Source: Alphaproteobacteria bacterium
GTDB taxonomy: Bacteria > Pseudomonadota > Alphaproteobacteria > Rs-D84
NCBI GenBank assembly: GCA_015062445.1
Contig: SUUQ01000002.1
Coordinates: forward strand, 87,051 to 124,790
Direction: 5' to 3'
Length of the DNA: 37,740 nucleotides
Made by a program: the position numbers and the translations under genes. Below are positions 3,826 to 25,380 of this stretch, piece by piece; within the stretch, counting starts at the first letter, position 1; every line of letters begins with the position of its first letter. The notes beneath the pieces are model-generated. The model was given only the letters and a program-made list of their open reading frames with translations, did not search any database and was not told the origin of the DNA.

Positions 3826-4872
3826 TTAACACAGTGGCACCACCCCCCGTCCCCCACAGAATGCGAATTTTGGGTTCAGATTAACACTTATCAAAAATCC
3901 CCACTGATCCATCACCCATTTGCGAAAATTGAAACTGCACGCCCATTTCAGCCACCCTGCGGCGGCGGCGATTTGACTGCATGCCCGGTGCGAATGGTCG
4001 TTATATTTCCAAATATTGCCCAGTCTTTGTTTAATTCTGTACTTTCCCCGTTTTCTCATCAGTATAAATTTTGGAAAGTGCCTGTATCCAATAAAATTGA
4101 CCCCATACGATACCGGGGCCACATTACATTTTGAAAACACCAAATCCAGGTTTTCTTGCACAAAATTCTCCAGTTGTTTTGCCAAGACATGCAATTGTTT
4201 TTTATCATTTCCGAACAGACAGAAATCATCGCAATACCTGATATAGTCCCGCCATCTCAGTCGATATTTCACGAACGCATCCAGTTCATTCAGATACACA
4301 TTCCCCAGCCATTGACTGGTTAAATTTCCGATTGGCAGATTTATTCCATTTCCACCTGACCGGACGATATTTTCCATCAAGCATATGATACGATTATCAT
4401 TAATTTTTCGTTTAATAATTTTCATCATAATATCATGATTAATACTGGGAAAGAATTTTCTGATATCACACTGCAGCACATACTTATTTCTTCGTATAAA
4501 GTGCATTACTCTTCTTGACCCTGCGTGCAGCCCCCGCCCTGGGATACATGCATAAGAATCCCGAATAAACATTTTATGCCAAATTGGCCCCAGCACATTT
4601 ATCAAGGCATGTTGCACGACATGGTCAGGATACAGTGGCAGCATATAAATCTGTCTTTCTTTTGGTTCGAATATTGTAAAGACAACATATTTTGACGTAC
4701 GAAAATTTCCATTTATCAAATCCTGCTGTAATTTCTGCAACAATTCTGTTTTATTTGCCAAGAACTGTTGCACCATTGCCTTGGACTTTTTACTTTTGAC
4801 TGCTTTTTTTGCGGCCAGTTCTAAATTTTCCATAGAAATAAATTTATCCCACAGATTTTTATACGTTTTCAC
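3826..4872 (-). CDS. Diversity-generating retroelement (DGR) reverse transcriptase
   Basis: A 348-residue reverse transcriptase of the DGR clade. It opens with the clade's MENLELAAKKA block (14-24). It then has IPGRGLHAGSRR (110-121), the RT3 catalytic Asp in LQCDIRKFFPSINHD (about 133-147), IGNLTSQ (181-187, the DGR hallmark replacing the QGxxxSP of group II introns and retrons), RYCDDFCLFG (YxDD, 212-221) and NFIGYRHFP. No maturase or RNase H domain is visible. DGR RTs copy the TR RNA with adenine-specific errors and deliver the cDNA to the VR. The adjacent TR/VR pair with 17 of 17 changes at adenines confirms the assignment. The start is a GTG with AAAGGAATAAGTC upstream. A stem-loop element (4908-4984) lies between it and the accessory gene. 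Confidence 0.95.
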   Translation of the reverse strand: MKTYKNLWDKFISMENLELAAKKAVKSKKSKAMVQQFLANKTELLQKLQQDLINGNFRTSKYVVFTIFEPKERQIYMLPLYPDHVVQHALINVLGPIWHKMFIRDSYACIPGRGLHAGSRRVMHFIRRNKYVLQCDIRKFFPSINHDIMMKIIKRKINDNRIICLMENIVRSGGNGINLPIGNLTSQWLGNVYLNELDAFVKYRLRWRDYIRYCDDFCLFGNDKKQLHVLAKQLENFVQENLDLVFSKCNVAPVSYGVNFIGYRHFPKFILMRKRGKYRIKQRLGNIWKYNDHSHRACSQIAAAAGWLKWACSFNFRKWVMDQWGFLISVNLNPKFAFCGGRGVVPLC

Positions 4873-4998: not shown

Positions 4999-5325
4999 TT
5001 ATGAAAAAGAATAATACTTATCGATTCTGACGACTGTTCCTTTGAACGGTATATTTTCCCGTGCGGCCTGTATTTGGTCGCTCAGGACAGAACTGCCTGT
5101 AAATGCGACAAAGACATCATCATCCATTACAAATTGTATTTGCAGACAATCTGTACCTTCTTTACGTTTTGACTTGGTTATTCTGAAATCTGTGACAACG
5201 ATTTCCCGGTTCAGGATTTCATCCAATCGTTTTTTCTTGCCAGGCATTGGCAGTTTATCTTTGGCAAAGTTTGCGAATTTATCGCATTGGCTGACATTTA
5301 TTGCTTTGATTTCATCCAGTGTCAT
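4999..5325 (-). CDS. Small DGR-cassette protein, possible nucleic-acid-binding accessory (not Avd)
   Basis: A 108-residue protein starting MTLDEIKAINVSQCDKFANF, with AAGGAT six nt upstream of the ATG; an in-frame TTG 57 nt upstream lacks such a site. The N-terminal half is basic (KDKLPMPGKKKRLDEIL). The C-terminal half alternates hydrophobic strands: REIVVTDFRITKSKRKEG, CLQIQFVMDDDVFVAFTG, and a late IPFKGTVVRIDKYYSFS. This resembles small OB-fold or ssDNA-binding-type phage proteins, but I cannot name a family. It does not look like the helical-bundle Avd of classical DGRs. Its position between the TR and the RT, on the same strand, suggests it helps reverse transcription or template handling. 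That role is inferred from location only. Confidence 0.7.
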   Translation of the reverse strand: MTLDEIKAINVSQCDKFANFAKDKLPMPGKKKRLDEILNREIVVTDFRITKSKRKEGTDCLQIQFVMDDDVFVAFTGSSVLSDQIQAARENIPFKGTVVRIDKYYSFS

Positions 5326-5522
5326 ACTTTTATCCTTGTATTTTTTGTTTACATTCAATCGGATATCCCGGACGTTCACCAAGATTCATGATTACATCAT
5401 CACGTTTCCTGATTACTAGCCCAGATATCCCCTGCGCTTTGTTTTCGACTTTTGCATGCATATTCTTCGCACACTCAGTCAGGCCGTACCATCCCGCCTT
5501 TGATAAAGAAGGCCTAATAAAA

Positions 5523-5561
5523 CAGATATTTTTTATATCTGAAAAGTGCCATACGCACTTT
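5523..5561 (-). ncRNA. Two hairpins in the TR-RT spacer (putative 3' part of the DGR template RNA)
   Basis: Reading minus-ward from the TR, a 7-bp hairpin (AAAGTGC, GTATG loop, GCACTTT, about 5544-5562) is followed by CAGATAT-AAAAA-ATATCTG (5523-5541) and then TTTTATT. In the Bordetella phage DGR the spacer downstream of TR is structured and needed for cDNA priming. These hairpins occupy the equivalent place, but the AT-rich one could also be a weak terminator. The remainder of 5326-5616 has no supported gene. Confidence 0.45.
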
Positions 5562-5616
5562 GTCCCGCAGGTTGGCGAAACTTGTTCCTTTTCACACCAA
5601 GTACCCTTCCCAAGGA

Positions 5617-5764
5617 GCCCGCAGCCGCAAACACGGACGCCCGAAACCGGCGACCATTGTCATTGTCGTTGTGGACGTTGTTGCCACAGTTGTTCGCGCA
5701 ATTAGACGCACAATTGGACGCATTCCCGTTGTCGTTGTTGAACACCCACGGGGACGCGGCAATA
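5617..5764 (-). repeat. DGR template repeat (TR)
   Basis: 148 bp that align without gaps to VR1 (5976-6123, offset 359). On the coding (minus) strand the TR is packed with AAC/AAT codons: read in the VR frame, its core spells N-rich segments such as FNNDNGNASNCASNCANNC. All 17 differences from VR1 fall on TR adenines (8 A to T, 5 A to G, 4 A to C), and no other base differs. AAY codons are the known DGR design that allows many amino acids without stops. The frame is open (5533-5808) only because the TR mirrors a coding VR; it is not called as a gene. The common 3' part (about 5617-5655) contains no change and would include the homing initiation region. Confidence 0.95.
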
Positions 5765-5881: not shown

Positions 5882-5905
5882 TTGGGGGCGGGGCGCCGCC
5901 CCCAA
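5882..5905. other. GC-rich hairpin between VR1 and TR
   Basis: TTGGGGGCG and CGCCCCCAA form a 9-bp stem with a 6-nt loop. It is strikingly GC-rich in an AT-rich context. No T-run follows on either strand, so it is not a standard terminator. Confidence 0.6.
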
Positions 5906-5917
5906 ATCCCCCACCCT

Positions 5918-5966
5918 GATTTCCGGCCCATGTGGTTATATCCACATGGGCAATTCCGATTTCCGG
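5918..5966. promoter_or_regulatory. Putative DGR target-recognition hairpin/cruciform downstream of VR1
   Basis: CCCATGTGG (5927-5935) and CCACATGGG (5942-5950) form a perfect 9-bp inverted repeat with a 6-nt loop, 26 bp downstream of the 3' end of VR1 in the coding sense. It is flanked by a 9-bp direct repeat GATTTCCGG (5918-5926 and 5958-5966). Classical DGRs carry a hairpin or cruciform just after VR that promotes target recognition, and this one is in the expected place. The TR has no such hairpin at the corresponding position. Confidence 0.7.
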
Positions 5967-5969
5967 TTA

Positions 5970-6719
5970 TCAATCGCCCGCAGCCGCAAACACGGACGCC
6001 CGAAACCGGCGACCATCGACATAGTCGGAGTGGACGAGGTTGCCACAGTAGCTCGCGCAATCAGACGCACAATAGGACGCATACCCGCGGTCGTAGCGGA
6101 ACACCCACGGGGACGCGGCAATATTGGGTTCTGTCATCTTACAATAACAATATTGTCCCCCCGCCGTGGCATTTTCAATCGCAGATTGGTCAGTCGCAAT
6201 CAAACCGGAATTCCACCCATATGCCGTATTTTCCGGCATTACCGTTGTACATTTTGATACGCCATTAACAATCCCGTATGGAAACACCGCATGCCACGTG
6301 CCAGATGCACCACTTACATACGTATAAGTGGTACCACCAACCCCCAGATTCGCCGCCAAATCCGCAGGCGTTGCAATCACCCCAGATGGGTCAGATAGAT
6401 AGTGGGGCTGAATAACAACGTCAGATGTAAAACTGTATGTAAATGATGATGTGGTATACGCATATTCAACACCATCGATGTACACTGACCAACCACTGAT
6501 TCTATACCCCGTGGGCGGTGTACAGGCCGATGTTAATGCCGCAGGGGTAAATGACGTGTTATAATTCGCAACTCCATCCGCCGGCAATGTACCGCTTTCT
6601 GTACCCGCACCGCACGAATACACAACATTATATGTCGTTTTGACACATGTTTCCGCATTTGCCATGCCAATAATAGACACAACCGCAATGCACAGTGTCG
6701 TTATTTTTATCCCTTTCAT
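5970..6719 (-). CDS. Secreted DGR target protein with C-terminal variable region (VR1)
   Basis: A 249-residue protein with a clear signal peptide (MKGIKITTLCIAVVSIIGMANA, cleavage before ETC). One Cys-containing InlB-B/Listeria-Bacteroides-like repeat follows (about 27-108: NVVYSCGAGTESG to VIQPHYL), then a middle domain, a GGQYCYCKMTEPN motif, and a C-terminal VR from about residue 199 to near the end. VR residues are Tyr/Ser/Asp-rich at the positions where the TR has Asn. Conserved framing is AASPWV at the start and RRFRASVFAAAG at the end. The protein is presumably surface-exposed or secreted, with VR as a variable binding face. A Shine-Dalgarno AAGGAAG precedes the ATG. It lies 40 bp after the repeat-protein gene and is probably co-transcribed. 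A paralogue is at 22548-23300. The ligand is unknown. Confidence 0.9.
   Translation of the reverse strand: MKGIKITTLCIAVVSIIGMANAETCVKTTYNVVYSCGAGTESGTLPADGVANYNTSFTPAALTSACTPPTGYRISGWSVYIDGVEYAYTTSSFTYSFTSDVVIQPHYLSDPSGVIATPADLAANLGVGGTTYTYVSGASGTWHAVFPYGIVNGVSKCTTVMPENTAYGWNSGLIATDQSAIENATAGGQYCYCKMTEPNIAASPWVFRYDRGYASYCASDCASYCGNLVHSDYVDGRRFRASVFAAAGD
5976..6123 (-). repeat. DGR variable repeat VR1
   Basis: The 148-bp counterpart of the TR, covering the last ~49 codons of the target gene. It differs from the TR at 17 sites, each an adenine in the TR sense strand; both flanks match the TR exactly to the boundaries. This directional, base-specific pattern shows past mutagenic retrohoming. 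Confidence 0.95.
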
Positions 6720-6759: not shown

Positions 6760-8628
6760 CTATTCCCACTGGGCAACCAGGCGTATATTCCCAGGTTCCG
6801 TCCATGTATATGTGCCACCAGATGCAACCGTGATGCCCGTGTCATTGCCAAATGCATCTGTGATTTTATACCCAACAAACGTTGTACCCGCCGCCGCTGT
6901 GCACACCGTGGTGGACGGGGTAATGGTGCCACCAAACGTGGCATTAATATAACTGCTGACTGTGGTGCCATTATCACAAATATATGCACCGCCGTATACG
7001 TTTGCCGTCCATTGCGCAACCATCGTTTTATCCGTAGTGTACGTATAACTGTACGAACCACCTTTGCTGATACTGGTTGAATCTATCTTCCATCCGCTGA
7101 AATAATACCCAGGTTTATAACAGGTACCCGCACGATATGGGCCGCTGTAATACATTTTATACCCTACGGCATGCGATTCGGGCGGTGTGCCGGTCGCACC
7201 ATCACCACACGAATATGACAGTGTGTACTGGGCGGGCGGTTCGGGCGATGTCTGCCGGCCATCGTCTGACCATATTGCACGCAGCCGAACATTCGTGCCC
7301 CATGCCCATGTGGTCGATGAACCGGGGGTCAACGTTTGTCCCGTTTCATTACCATACATATCCAACACCTGATACCCTTGCAATGTTTGACCATATGGAT
7401 TAACGCATGACAAACTGGATGACGACTTGGGGGTAAAATTCGAATTATATGTACCGGTGGCATAGTCCGAACTGACGTACGTACTGTCCGAACAATAATT
7501 GCATAAATATGGTGCACCGTATGCGTTTGCACTCCATTGGGCCACCATCGTCTTATCGGTGGTGTATGTATAACTGTACGAACCGCCTTTGCTGATACTG
7601 GTTGAATCTATCTTCCATCCGCTGAAATAATACCCAGGTTTATAACAGGTACCCGCACGATATGGGCCTGTATAGTACAACTTATACCGAACAGTATGCG
7701 ATTCGGGTGGTGTGCCGGTCGCACCATCACCACACGAATATGACAATGTGTACTGGGCGGGCGGTTCGGGCGATGTCTGCCGGCCATCGTCTGACCATAT
7801 TGCACGCAGCCGAACATTCCCCGGCCATGCCCATTTGGTTGATTTGCCCGGGGCTAATTGTTCCCCCGTGTCATCGCCAAACATATCGGAAACAACATAA
7901 TATTCCAATGTCTGACCATATGGATTAACGCATGACAAACTGGATGTCGCCTTGGGGGTAAAATTCGAATTATATGTACCGGTGGCATAGTCCGAACTGA
8001 CGTACGTACTGTCCGAACAATAATTGCATAAATACGCACCACCGTATGCATTTGCCGTCCATGTCGCAACCATCGTTTTATCCGATGTGTACGTATAACT
8101 GTATGCCGTACCGGTGGTCAATGATGTCGAATCAATTTTCCATCCGCCAAATGTATACCCTGGATTTATACAACCCGCCGCACCATCAGGGCGACTGAAC
8201 AATTCCCCCCACCCTATTTCACGCGATTCGGGCGGTGTGCCGGTCGCACCATCACCACAACTGTACGACAATGTGTATGTCGTGGGACACAGTTGCCCCG
8301 AATTCGAATTTGCATGGTATATTGCATCATTATAACTGACATTCAATGTGCCATCTGATTGGCCACTTATCAAATCTGCATAACAAACTGTGTCGCCGTT
8401 TTTAATGTGAATGGCTGGAAATGTTCCCTGGGTCGCAAACAGGTCAAATCGATATCCGTTGGATGTATGTAAACCGGTCACGCCACCGCCGCACAGTTCC
8501 ATACATTCACCGTTGGCATTGCGAACCAAATTCGCCGCCGGCCCCAAATATGCCGTGGTACCATCTGGACATGCCGCATGCACAGACATCGGAACCAAAA
8601 TAAATAACAACAAAAATTTATGACTCAT
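6760..8628 (-). CDS. Secreted Cys-rich Listeria-Bacteroides (InlB-B-like) repeat protein, copy 1
   Basis: 622 residues from the ATG at 8628, chosen over a TTG at 8643 because it begins the signal peptide MSHKFLLLFILVPMSVHA and has GGGGGA upstream. The N-terminal domain (CPDGTTAYLGP to NSNSGQLCPTT) is nearly identical to the 25251 paralogue. Then come about six 70-90-residue repeats of the form YTLSYSCGDGATGTPPES, GYYFSGWKIDSTS, DKTMVAQW, alternating with Cys repeats (YLCNYCSDSTYV to VRLRAIW). At DNA level the long unit recurs with a 525-bp period (for example 7225 and 7750). No anchor or transmembrane segment is visible, so it is likely secreted or held by partners. It precedes the DGR target in the same unit. 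The ligand or adhesive function is unknown; InlB-B repeats occur in many surface proteins. Confidence 0.85.
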   Translation of the reverse strand: MSHKFLLLFILVPMSVHAACPDGTTAYLGPAANLVRNANGECMELCGGGVTGLHTSNGYRFDLFATQGTFPAIHIKNGDTVCYADLISGQSDGTLNVSYNDAIYHANSNSGQLCPTTYTLSYSCGDGATGTPPESREIGWGELFSRPDGAAGCINPGYTFGGWKIDSTSLTTGTAYSYTYTSDKTMVATWTANAYGGAYLCNYCSDSTYVSSDYATGTYNSNFTPKATSSLSCVNPYGQTLEYYVVSDMFGDDTGEQLAPGKSTKWAWPGNVRLRAIWSDDGRQTSPEPPAQYTLSYSCGDGATGTPPESHTVRYKLYYTGPYRAGTCYKPGYYFSGWKIDSTSISKGGSYSYTYTTDKTMVAQWSANAYGAPYLCNYCSDSTYVSSDYATGTYNSNFTPKSSSSLSCVNPYGQTLQGYQVLDMYGNETGQTLTPGSSTTWAWGTNVRLRAIWSDDGRQTSPEPPAQYTLSYSCGDGATGTPPESHAVGYKMYYSGPYRAGTCYKPGYYFSGWKIDSTSISKGGSYSYTYTTDKTMVAQWTANVYGGAYICDNGTTVSSYINATFGGTITPSTTVCTAAAGTTFVGYKITDAFGNDTGITVASGGTYTWTEPGNIRLVAQWE

Positions 8629-8644
8629 TCCACATTCCCCCAAT

Positions 8645-22547: not shown

Positions 22548-23300
22548 CTATAATGCCCCGGCAAACACGGACGCCCGAAACAAGCGACCAGCGTCACTGT
22601 CGTGGCGGACGTTGCCGGCACAGTAGTACGCGCAACCAGTCTCACAAATGGACGCATCATCCCTGGTGGCGCCGTAGACCACCCACGGGGACGCGGCAAG
22701 ATTGGGTTCTGTCATCTTGCAATAACAATAGTAACCACCCGCCGTGGCATTTTCAATCGCAGATTGGTCAGTCGCAATCAAACCCGTAGTACCTCCACCC
22801 GAAGTATTTGCTGGCTTAACCGTTGTGCATTTTGATACGCCAGATACCGCACCATACCAAAAATGAACCGTCCAGGTGCCAGACGCAGCATTGGTGTATG
22901 CACCTATGCTACGAGCACCATCATACAAATTCGCAATCATGGTCGCAGGTTCCGCAATCGGTACCCAATGCGGACCAATTTCAATATCTGTTGTATAATA
23001 ATAGGTAAACGAACCGCCACTGGTACTGCTGTAATATGCAACCGTTTCATCATCAACAATTATCGCCTGGCCGCCATAGACATAGCCAGATGGGGCCGTA
23101 CACATGCTTTCTTTAATTGCCGTGGGTTTGAAACTGGTGCCGTATGTCGCAGTGGTGGACGATGGCAATGTGCCGGACAACGTCCCACCATTACACGTGT
23201 ACGTCACATTAAATACTGTTTTTATGCATGTTTCTGCGTTCGCCACACCAAAAACGGATGCAATCGCAATGCACAATGTTGTTCTTTTTATTCCATTCAT
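22548..23300 (-). CDS. Secreted DGR-type target protein, second copy (VR2)
   Basis: A 250-residue paralogue of the 5970-6719 target. The signal peptide is MNGIKRTTLCIAIASVFGVANA, followed by a Cys InlB-B-like repeat (about 27-112), a middle region, YYCYCKMTEPN, and a C-terminal variable region ending RLFRASVFAGAL. The start has AGGAACAGGAA directly upstream. It follows the second repeat-protein gene exactly as the first pair is arranged. There is no TR or RT next to it. The VR resembles the local TR but carries an inserted codon and at least seven substitutions at non-adenine positions, so it was probably written from a different template or has not been rewritten for a long time. Confidence 0.88.
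   Translation of the reverse strand: MNGIKRTTLCIAIASVFGVANAETCIKTVFNVTYTCNGGTLSGTLPSSTTATYGTSFKPTAIKESMCTAPSGYVYGGQAIIVDDETVAYYSSTSGGSFTYYYTTDIEIGPHWVPIAEPATMIANLYDGARSIGAYTNAASGTWTVHFWYGAVSGVSKCTTVKPANTSGGGTTGLIATDQSAIENATAGGYYCYCKMTEPNLAASPWVVYGATRDDASICETGCAYYCAGNVRHDSDAGRLFRASVFAGAL
22561..22699 (-). repeat. Second variable repeat (VR2), diverged from local TR
   Basis: It aligns to TR 5628-5761 with one 3-nt insertion. By my codon-by-codon reading, about 18 changes sit on TR adenines and about 7 do not (for example TTC to GTC, GCG to GAG, CGG to TTG). Flanks are conserved: GCAAACACGGACGCCCGAAA on the plus strand at one end and CCACCCACGGGGACGCGGCA at the other. Adenine enrichment still marks it as a DGR VR. 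No strong hairpin follows; only a 5-bp AT-rich one (GAATT-CTT-AATTC, about 22521-22533). Confidence 0.75.
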
Positions 23301-23427: not shown

Positions 23428-25251
23428 TTATTCCCACAGGGCAACCAAACGTATGTTCCCAGGTACCGTCCATGTCCATGATGCCCCCGGCGAAATAACA
23501 ATACCCGTGTCATTACCCAATGCATCCAACACGCGATACCCCGCAAATGTCGCACCATCCGCCGCGGTGCATACCGTGCCGCTGGGGCTGATACTGTTGC
23601 CAAAGGTGGCATTAACATAACTGCTGTTTGTTGCACCGTTATTACATAAATACGCACCACCATATGCGTTTGCCGTCCATTGTGCAACCATCGTTTTATC
23701 GGTGGTGTAATTATATGTGTAATACACACCCTTAGATAACGATGTTGAATCTATCTTCCAGCCACTAACGGAATAGCCCGGCTTACGACATGTACCAACA
23801 TCGTATGGTGGTGTGTACATTTCACCATTGGCAATCTGTTTTGATTCCGGTGCTATGCCAGTCGCACCATCACCACAACTGTACGACAATGTGTATTTTG
23901 TACTGACCTCTGGTTCTGACCACATCGCACGCAACTGAATATTCCCCGGCCACGACCATGTGGTTGATTGCCCCGGGGTTAACTGAACACCTGCTTCATC
24001 ACCATATACATCCAACACCTGGTATCCTAACAATGTCTGATTAAACGGATTTTCACACGATAAACTGGATTTTGACGTAAAACTGCCACCATAATTTGCA
24101 GTTACATAATCTGAATTTGTAAATGGACTGCCTGGACAATAATTACACAAATACGGTGCACCGTATGCGTTTGCCGTCCATTGTGCAACCATCGTTTTAT
24201 CGGTGGTATAATTATATGAATAATATTGCCCCTTGGTTAATGATGCGGAATCTATCTTCCACCCACTGATGGAATACCCCGGCTTACGGCACGTTCCTGC
24301 ATTATGGGGTGGCGTATATGTTTCACCATTGGCAATCTGTTTTGATTCTGGTGGTGTGCCGGTCGCACCATCGCCACAACTGTATGACAATGTGTATTTT
24401 GTCACAGTACTGACCCCTGGTTCTGACCACATCGCACGCAACTGAACATTCCCCGGCCACGACCATGTGGTTGTTTGTCCTGGGGTTAACTGAACACCTG
24501 TTTCATCACCATATACATCCAACACCTGGTATCCTAACAATGTCTGATTAAACGGATTTTCACACGATAAACTGGATTTTGACGTAAAACTGCCACCATA
24601 ATTTACATTTACATAATCTGAATTTGTAAATGGACTGCCTGGACAATAATTACATAAATACGGTGCACCGTATGCGTTTGCACGCCATTGGGCCACCATC
24701 GTTTTATCGGTGGTATAATTATATGAATAATATTGTCCTTTGGTTAATGACGTGGAATCTATCTTCCACCCACTGATGGAATACCCCGGCTTACGGCATG
24801 TACCAACATCGTATGGTGGGGTGTACATATCCCCCCACCCCATTTCATGCGATTCTGGCGGTGTGCCGGTCGCACCATCGCCACAACTGTATGACAATGT
24901 GTATGTCGTGGGACACAGTTGCCCCGAATTCGAATTTGCATGGTATATTGCATCATTATAACTGACATTCAATGTGCCGTCTGATTGACCACTTATCAAA
25001 TCTGCATAGCAAACTGTGTCGCCGTTTTTAATGTGAATGGCTGGAAATGTTCCCTGGGTCGCAAACAGGTCAAATCGATATCCGTTGGATGTATGTAAAC
25101 CGGTCACGCCACCGCCGCACAACTCAACACAGTCGCCATTCGCATTGCGATAACGGGTTGATTCCGGCCCCAAATATGCCGTGGTACCATCTGGGCATAC
25201 CGCGTGTACAGACATCGGTATAATACACAATAATAAAAATTTACATTTCAT
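23428..25251 (-). CDS. Secreted Cys-rich Listeria-Bacteroides (InlB-B-like) repeat protein, copy 2
   Basis: 607 residues from the ATG at 25251 (MKCKFLLLCIIPMSVHA signal peptide), which has GGGGG about 9 nt upstream, matching copy 1; longer in-frame starts at 25269 and 25257 are less well placed. The N-terminal domain is almost identical to copy 1, even at DNA level (about 24900-25120 versus 8280-8500). Repeats alternate YTLSYSCGDGATG, GYSISGWKIDS, YNYTTDKTMVAQW with YLCNYCPGSPFTNSDYV, LGYQVLDVYGDE, LRAMW. The long unit has a 507-bp period (24202 and 24709). Probably secreted or surface-bound; no anchor is seen. First gene of a unit with the VR2 target. Confidence 0.85.
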   Translation of the reverse strand: MKCKFLLLCIIPMSVHAVCPDGTTAYLGPESTRYRNANGDCVELCGGGVTGLHTSNGYRFDLFATQGTFPAIHIKNGDTVCYADLISGQSDGTLNVSYNDAIYHANSNSGQLCPTTYTLSYSCGDGATGTPPESHEMGWGDMYTPPYDVGTCRKPGYSISGWKIDSTSLTKGQYYSYNYTTDKTMVAQWRANAYGAPYLCNYCPGSPFTNSDYVNVNYGGSFTSKSSLSCENPFNQTLLGYQVLDVYGDETGVQLTPGQTTTWSWPGNVQLRAMWSEPGVSTVTKYTLSYSCGDGATGTPPESKQIANGETYTPPHNAGTCRKPGYSISGWKIDSASLTKGQYYSYNYTTDKTMVAQWTANAYGAPYLCNYCPGSPFTNSDYVTANYGGSFTSKSSLSCENPFNQTLLGYQVLDVYGDEAGVQLTPGQSTTWSWPGNIQLRAMWSEPEVSTKYTLSYSCGDGATGIAPESKQIANGEMYTPPYDVGTCRKPGYSVSGWKIDSTSLSKGVYYTYNYTTDKTMVAQWTANAYGGAYLCNNGATNSSYVNATFGNSISPSGTVCTAADGATFAGYRVLDALGNDTGIVISPGASWTWTVPGNIRLVALWE

Positions 25252-25267
25252 CCCCATACCCCCAATC

Positions 25268-25380
25268 AAAAAACCGCCCGTTTTTAACGGCGGTCGGGGA
25301 ATTCAAAAATCATAAAAAGCAATGACCCTGTTGGTCTTTCACATTTAATGCGTATTATATACACCAACAGTCCCCCGACC
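25268..25380 (-). promoter_or_regulatory. Structured leader with terminator-like hairpin, copy 2
   Basis: In the minus-strand RNA, GGTCGGGG (25373-25380) pairs with CCCCGACC (25292-25299). Directly inside, CTGTTGGT (25363-25370) pairs with ACCAACAG (25328-25335). The outer 3' strand overlaps by 3 nt a terminator-like hairpin (25273-25294) followed by TTTTTT, just before GATTGGGGG and the start codon. The architecture matches 8645-8736 although the sequences differ. Confidence 0.55.

Follow-up and report, generated by a model that had tools for sequence, protein, structure and literature searches.

In Bordetella phage BPP-1, efficient homing requires a GC-rich hairpin of 7-10 bp that begins 4-34 bp beyond the VR (PMC3240598). 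In Treponema denticola, one RT and one TR serve seven dispersed targets, both local and remote; 38 of the 56 variable VR columns fall at TR adenines, one target was reported to have 'excessive mutations', and a remote target in T. denticola SP32 was interpreted as a relic of a different type of DGR (PMC4891356). Trans writing was inferred from the matches at non-adenine positions in Thiohalocapsa PB-PSB1, where unmatched VRs were put down to past or cis activity (PMC10907252). For the remote variable proteins of cyanobacteria, dispersed targets were assigned to a distant TR, and cruciforms and homing sites were proposed to activate remote targets (PMC7517822).

The window analysed here, a stretch of 37,740 nucleotides, is part of contig C4 in the genome (G000; 1.05 Mb, 15 contigs, 98% complete) of an uncultured gut alphaproteobacterium of the Enterousia group. 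Its named relatives, which include Candidatus Enterousia scatequi (G097), are alphaproteobacterial MAGs obtained from the gut of sheep and roe deer. The comparison set comprised 156 small genomes of the genus, G000 and 155 congeners, with one genome per species; G110 is the sister species and G114 a third species. VR2_0 and VR3_0 denote sequences from G000, and VR1_110, VR2_110 and VR3_110 those from G110. In G000, we found a single RT, a single TR and three close targets, T1 next to the RT, T2 at a distance of 16 kb and T3 on another contig (Table 1).

The G000 DGR joins a known kind, in which one RT and one TR are accompanied by several dispersed targets and the remote VRs carry non-adenine changes. 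T. denticola has the same combination of a single RT and TR with local and remote targets, the remote VRs also having non-adenine changes, but it belongs to another phylum, its accessory gene is of the HRDC type rather than ORF x, and the text neither uses the word hairpin nor compares hairpins with freshness (PMC4891356). Thiohalocapsa PB-PSB1 differs in that its 8-Mb genome has nine loci, which fall into four classes, and in that population data exist for it (PMC10907252). The cyanobacterial set accepted remote VRs down to 50% identity and, in the passages on this point, offered the hairpin idea as a proposal (PMC7517822). BPP-1 shares the RT, the adenine-specific copying from TR to VR and the GC-rich hairpin after the VR, but has one cis target, a 4-nt GRNA loop instead of the 6 nt at T1, and Avd in place of ORF x (PMC3240598). 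What is new is in the detail: the scale in a genus of approximately 1-Mb genomes, ORF x, the RNA stretch after the TR and the hairpin association.

Table 1. Features of the DGR, its targets and related loci. Positions without a prefix refer to the window.
Feature	Location	Strand	Remarks
DGR reverse transcriptase	3826..4872	-	348 aa; Pfam RVT_1 3.4e-12; sole RT found in genome
Accessory ORF x	4999..5382	-	127 aa; adjoins RT in nearly every genus cassette
Conserved structured stretch just 3' of TR	5459..5628	-	AAAGTTTYGCYAACCTGYGGGACAAAGTG..CACTTTTCAGAT..ATCTG..; after ~30 genus TRs
TR (template repeat)	5617..5764	-	only TR found in genome
Second hairpin downstream of T1	5882..5905	-	10 bp, GC-rich
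Hairpin downstream of T1	5926..5951	-	10 bp, gcccatgtgg-ATATAA-ccacatgggc; 24 nt after end of VR1 homology; same stem in G110 and G077
Local target T1	5970..6719	-	249 aa
VR1	5976-6123
Large surface-like repeat protein directly upstream of T1	6760..8643	-	relatives beside T2 and T3
Remote target T2	22548..23300	-	intact 250-codon ORF
VR2 core	22563-22691	-
Repeat protein upstream of T2	23428..25269	-	paralogue of protein beside T1
Third target T3	G000:C1:30737-31480		outside window, other contig; 79% identical to T2
Further weak target-like hit	G000:C2:12885-13055
T3 locus of G110	L084:3752-4549
VR3-locus remnant of G114	L085:9504-9705
Second TR of G097	L178:10351-10464 (G097:C17)		~220 bases from contig end, beside target-like ORF

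The RT is of the DGR type, with the motifs IGNLTSQ and YCDD, and its best solved relative was 8ub7 (E 1.5e-53 over residues 2-326, nearly the whole protein), which we take to be the RT of the BPP-1 DGR. An in-frame TGA in the RT of G077 results only in a shorter C-terminus. ORF x occupies the accessory position and is conserved, with 55-98% identity in most of the other genus RT loci tested by tblastn. When it was checked as an accessory protein of the Avd or HRDC type, it matched no Pfam, NCBIfam or PADLOC family, and its predicted-structure model was poor; the fold search was disregarded because the model was of low confidence. ORF x may represent a novel type of accessory protein for DGRs. 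The TR is non-coding and close to the RT, and VR1 and VR2 extend to the final codons of T1 and T2, respectively. The conserved stretch that follows the TR has two hairpins, and an alignment of 14 such stretches had 24 pairs, four of them with compensatory changes. It is probably part of the TR RNA; an Rfam search for it returned nothing above threshold and no family.

A matching RT was present in 44 of the 156 genomes, usually with one TR, and the genomes had up to approximately 24 target-like hits each, which ranged from fresh to stale. Three genomes, G001, G036 and G079, had 24, 21 and 12 target-like hits, respectively, with the RT unlisted in the first two and present only as a fragment in the third (one contig); these hits are possible leftovers of lost DGRs. 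Viral contigs contained no relative of the VR-region profile (A1) or of ORF x, and relatives of the RT only at about 50% identity or less, so that a phage home for the targets was rejected.

Residues 25-114 of T2 resemble an InlB B-repeat. When the protein was checked for a C-type lectin fold, the match covered this N-terminal InlB-like part only and the VR domain was unmatched. Upstream of each target is a large repeat protein, and these proteins belong to a single paralogous family, the one next to T3 being found in the loci designated L010 and L084, as if the target and its repeat-protein partner moved or acted together. All three targets are present in G110 in the same neighbourhoods as in G000. 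The bodies of T1 and T2 have diverged by 13% of bases between the two species and that of T3 by 36%, and paralogue exchange is visible here, the T3 body being T2-like in G000 and T1-like in G110. The T3 locus of G110 has this T1-like body together with VR3_110 between perfectly conserved flanks.

In the local VR1, all differences from the TR are at adenines, 17 in total. In VR2, 18 of the 30 adenines and seven of the 96 other sites were changed and one 3-nt insertion was present, exactly the approximate counts given in the initial annotation of the window, which had argued that a single copy of the present TR could not account for them. That argument holds, since a copy altered at adenines only cannot yield the seven non-adenine changes and the insertion. 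VR2 does not have the identity to the TR at all non-adenine sites that would mark a recently written trans target. The adenine bias of VR2 was nevertheless pronounced (Fisher p = 7e-9), as was that of VR3, which has 15 adenine and seven non-adenine changes relative to the TR (p = 1e-6). Several templates, or one evolving template, had been suggested to account for the mismatch; in G000, this was not borne out, the genome having one TR with a core that is identical in the sister species (126/126).

A second TR was sought in G000 by BLAST with the TR and VR2, by a TR profile and by a strict template pattern in which every base equals the VR2 base or A, with three mismatches allowed, and none was found. 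The strict pattern, to which every template of VR2 has to conform, matched only VR2 itself in G000 and nothing in the 155 congeners. Among the genus TRs compared, the G000 TR had by far the best fit to VR2 (score 83.5 versus 33.3 for the next), and other genus TRs were rejected as the source of VR2, VR3, VR2_110 or VR3_110, as none fitted them better than their own TR. For most of the non-adenine sites at which VR2 departs from the TR, the other copies agree with the TR. In G114, the body of T3 and its partner are deleted and the 3' part of the VR is left; this remnant differs from the G000 TR at 12 of 23 adenines and at one of 76 other sites. The non-adenine changes therefore lie on the VR side, given that G110 has the same TR core and that the other copies mostly retain the TR state.

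Several observations bear on writing in trans. In four congeners, G043, G067, G094 and G121, the mismatches between remote VRs and the single TR amount to 0-2% of non-adenine sites, although the bodies of these targets have diverged from the local target by 29-62%, and the possibility that such fresh VRs belong to recent gene duplicates was rejected for these four genomes on account of that divergence. The comparison of sequences thus indicates that a single TR writes remote genes in this genus. Stale copies are found in the same genomes, the changed non-adenine sites numbering 13 of 82 in an example from G094 and reaching 28 of 90 in G121, and genomes with many targets have a gradient from fresh to stale VR copies. 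In G000, the bodies of T1 and T2 differ at 38% of nucleotides and VR2 differs from the TR at only 7% of non-adenine sites, which argues that this TR wrote VR2 in trans, and did so long after the genes had duplicated. A comparison of VR2_0 with VR2_110 showed 12 adenine sites that were mutated in both, four of them to the same base, as expected for independent writes; at least one of the two VR2s would therefore have been rewritten since the species diverged. A frozen VR2, one of the options offered initially, comes closest to these observations, but not in the literal sense, as VR2 appears to be rarely rewritten rather than dead.

The extra changes were pooled from VR2_0, VR3_0 and VR2_110, giving 20 non-adenine changes. 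Replacements made up 18 of these 20, the corresponding figure for the bodies of the targets being 204 of 332 (p = 0.006). Changes to A accounted for 12 of the 20 (p = 0.013), whereas the proportion in the stale VRs of congeners was 22%. Three of the changed sites (28, 106 and 107) are common to VR2 and VR3. The 3-nt insertion in VR2 and a 9-nt gap in VR2_110 are not normal products of a DGR. VR3_110 has 26 non-adenine changes and is 12 nt shorter than the TR, and none of the TRs found in the genus explains it. Conversion is a further source of changes, given that the target genes exchange segments, as in the T3 bodies of G000 and G110.

The interpretation that we favour, with a probability of approximately 0.62, is that T2 is a trans target of a DGR with one TR and is rarely rewritten, that its non-adenine changes came from mutation, selection and exchange between paralogues, and that the missing hairpin is a likely cause of the rare rewriting. 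A single RT, accessory gene and template would act on a small dispersed family of targets in which T2 would be a genuine trans target, its VR2 having been written from the ancestor of the present TR, which has stayed unchanged. T2, like T3, would be rewritten only rarely, and after the last full write VR2 would have gathered substitutions favoured for the amino-acid change, one codon insertion and, probably, segments exchanged with paralogues. A likely cause in cis would be that, unlike T1, T2 and T3 have no downstream hairpin and a match to the TR that stops about 12 nt earlier on the 3' side. The sequences themselves show the anatomy, the adenine bias, the single TR of the assembly, the stability of the TR and, in congeners, trans writing by single TRs, while the sequence of events, the role of the hairpin and the action of selection are inferred.

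The main rival, which we regard as unlikely, is that the last write of VR2 and VR3 came from a second template, now lost from the genome, that had extra adenines at the changed sites. The excess of changes to A is the best evidence for such a template, and this excess and the sites common to VR2 and VR3 are not predicted by drift but would be by a lost template with more A. Other members of the genus also have more than one template. G077 has two RTs and two TRs, and in Ca. E. scatequi the first TR fits the local VR while a second TR fits about ten dispersed VRs, with 4-16 non-adenine changes, far better than the first does. No second RT was found in this MAG. The second TR lies at a contig edge of an assembly that is 79% complete, and the description of it as an orphan was therefore dropped. 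The suggestion that another TR had written VR2 thus has a parallel in a congener where a second TR fits remote targets, but no such TR was found in G000 and no template capable of yielding VR2 in any of the 155 congeners. Moreover, most of the changed sites hold the TR state in other VRs, one lost template could not give both VR2 and VR3 because they differ by one codon, and the implied adenines would lie in codons of the kind AAG, GAA and TAT, whereas 716 of the 850 adenines in genus TRs are in AAC or AAT. The same arguments apply to the idea that the unassembled 2% of G000 contains a second TR, possibly accompanied by a separate RT. The assembly is a MAG of 15 contigs and the second TR of Ca. 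E. scatequi is itself close to a contig end, but no such TR was found in G110 either, and we consider this explanation quite improbable.

It is similarly improbable, if slightly less so, that gene conversion with other targets, rather than drift, was the main process by which VR2 was brought in or reshaped. The target bodies are mosaic between the sister species, the heavily altered VR3_110 lies between two intact flanks and the change T13>G is common to VR2_0 and VR1_110; however, no donor with the private changes of VR2 was found in the 156 genomes. Drift of the TR after VR2 was written, also raised in the initial annotation, has nothing in its favour beyond the mismatch itself and is contradicted by the identity of the TR core in G110 and by the TR state kept in VR1 of both species (except for one site in VR1_110), in the G114 remnant (except for one site) and in most other VRs, so that we give it hardly any credence. 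We think it just as implausible that VR2 belongs to an ordinary diverged paralogue that was never written by the DGR. The non-adenine changes and the insertion would be accommodated, but not the adenine bias, nor the fact that the T2 body has diverged from the T1 body far more than VR2 has from the TR.

The part assigned to the hairpin in the rare rewriting of T2 was examined across the genus by a rule that required a stem of at least 7 bp within 100 nt after the VR, for which the shuffle background was approximately 1%. A downstream hairpin, as described for DGRs, was found at T1 in both G000 and G110, and none was found downstream of T2 or T3 in either sister species. Genus-wide, a hairpin followed seven of eight fresh remote VRs and 10 of 30 stale ones (p = 0.009), the paralogues not being independent; when Ca. 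E. scatequi was left out, the figures were seven of eight and two of 18 (p = 0.0004). A hairpin was lacking after 13 of 35 fresh VRs, and the VR3 remnant of G114 has none, yet fits the TR. Some of the hairpins in the genus may be terminators. As the link between hairpin and freshness was found after the fact and the copies within a genome are related, it is a lead and not proof. An orientation effect has been reported in E. coli (PMC12875486), but T1 and T2 are on the same strand and have the same sign of GC skew, so that this effect does not separate them and the direction of replication was rejected as the difference between them.

These results call for caution, in that non-adenine mismatches between a remote VR and the sole TR of a genome do not alone imply a hidden second template. 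A tentative proposal is that, in this genus, the downstream hairpin licenses which of the dispersed genes the DGR keeps rewriting, that the losers become fixed receptors under selection and exchange, and that some species keep a second template for the remote family. For the question of what turns a remote gene into a target of a DGR, the genus is a natural experiment, in which freshness tracks the downstream hairpin.
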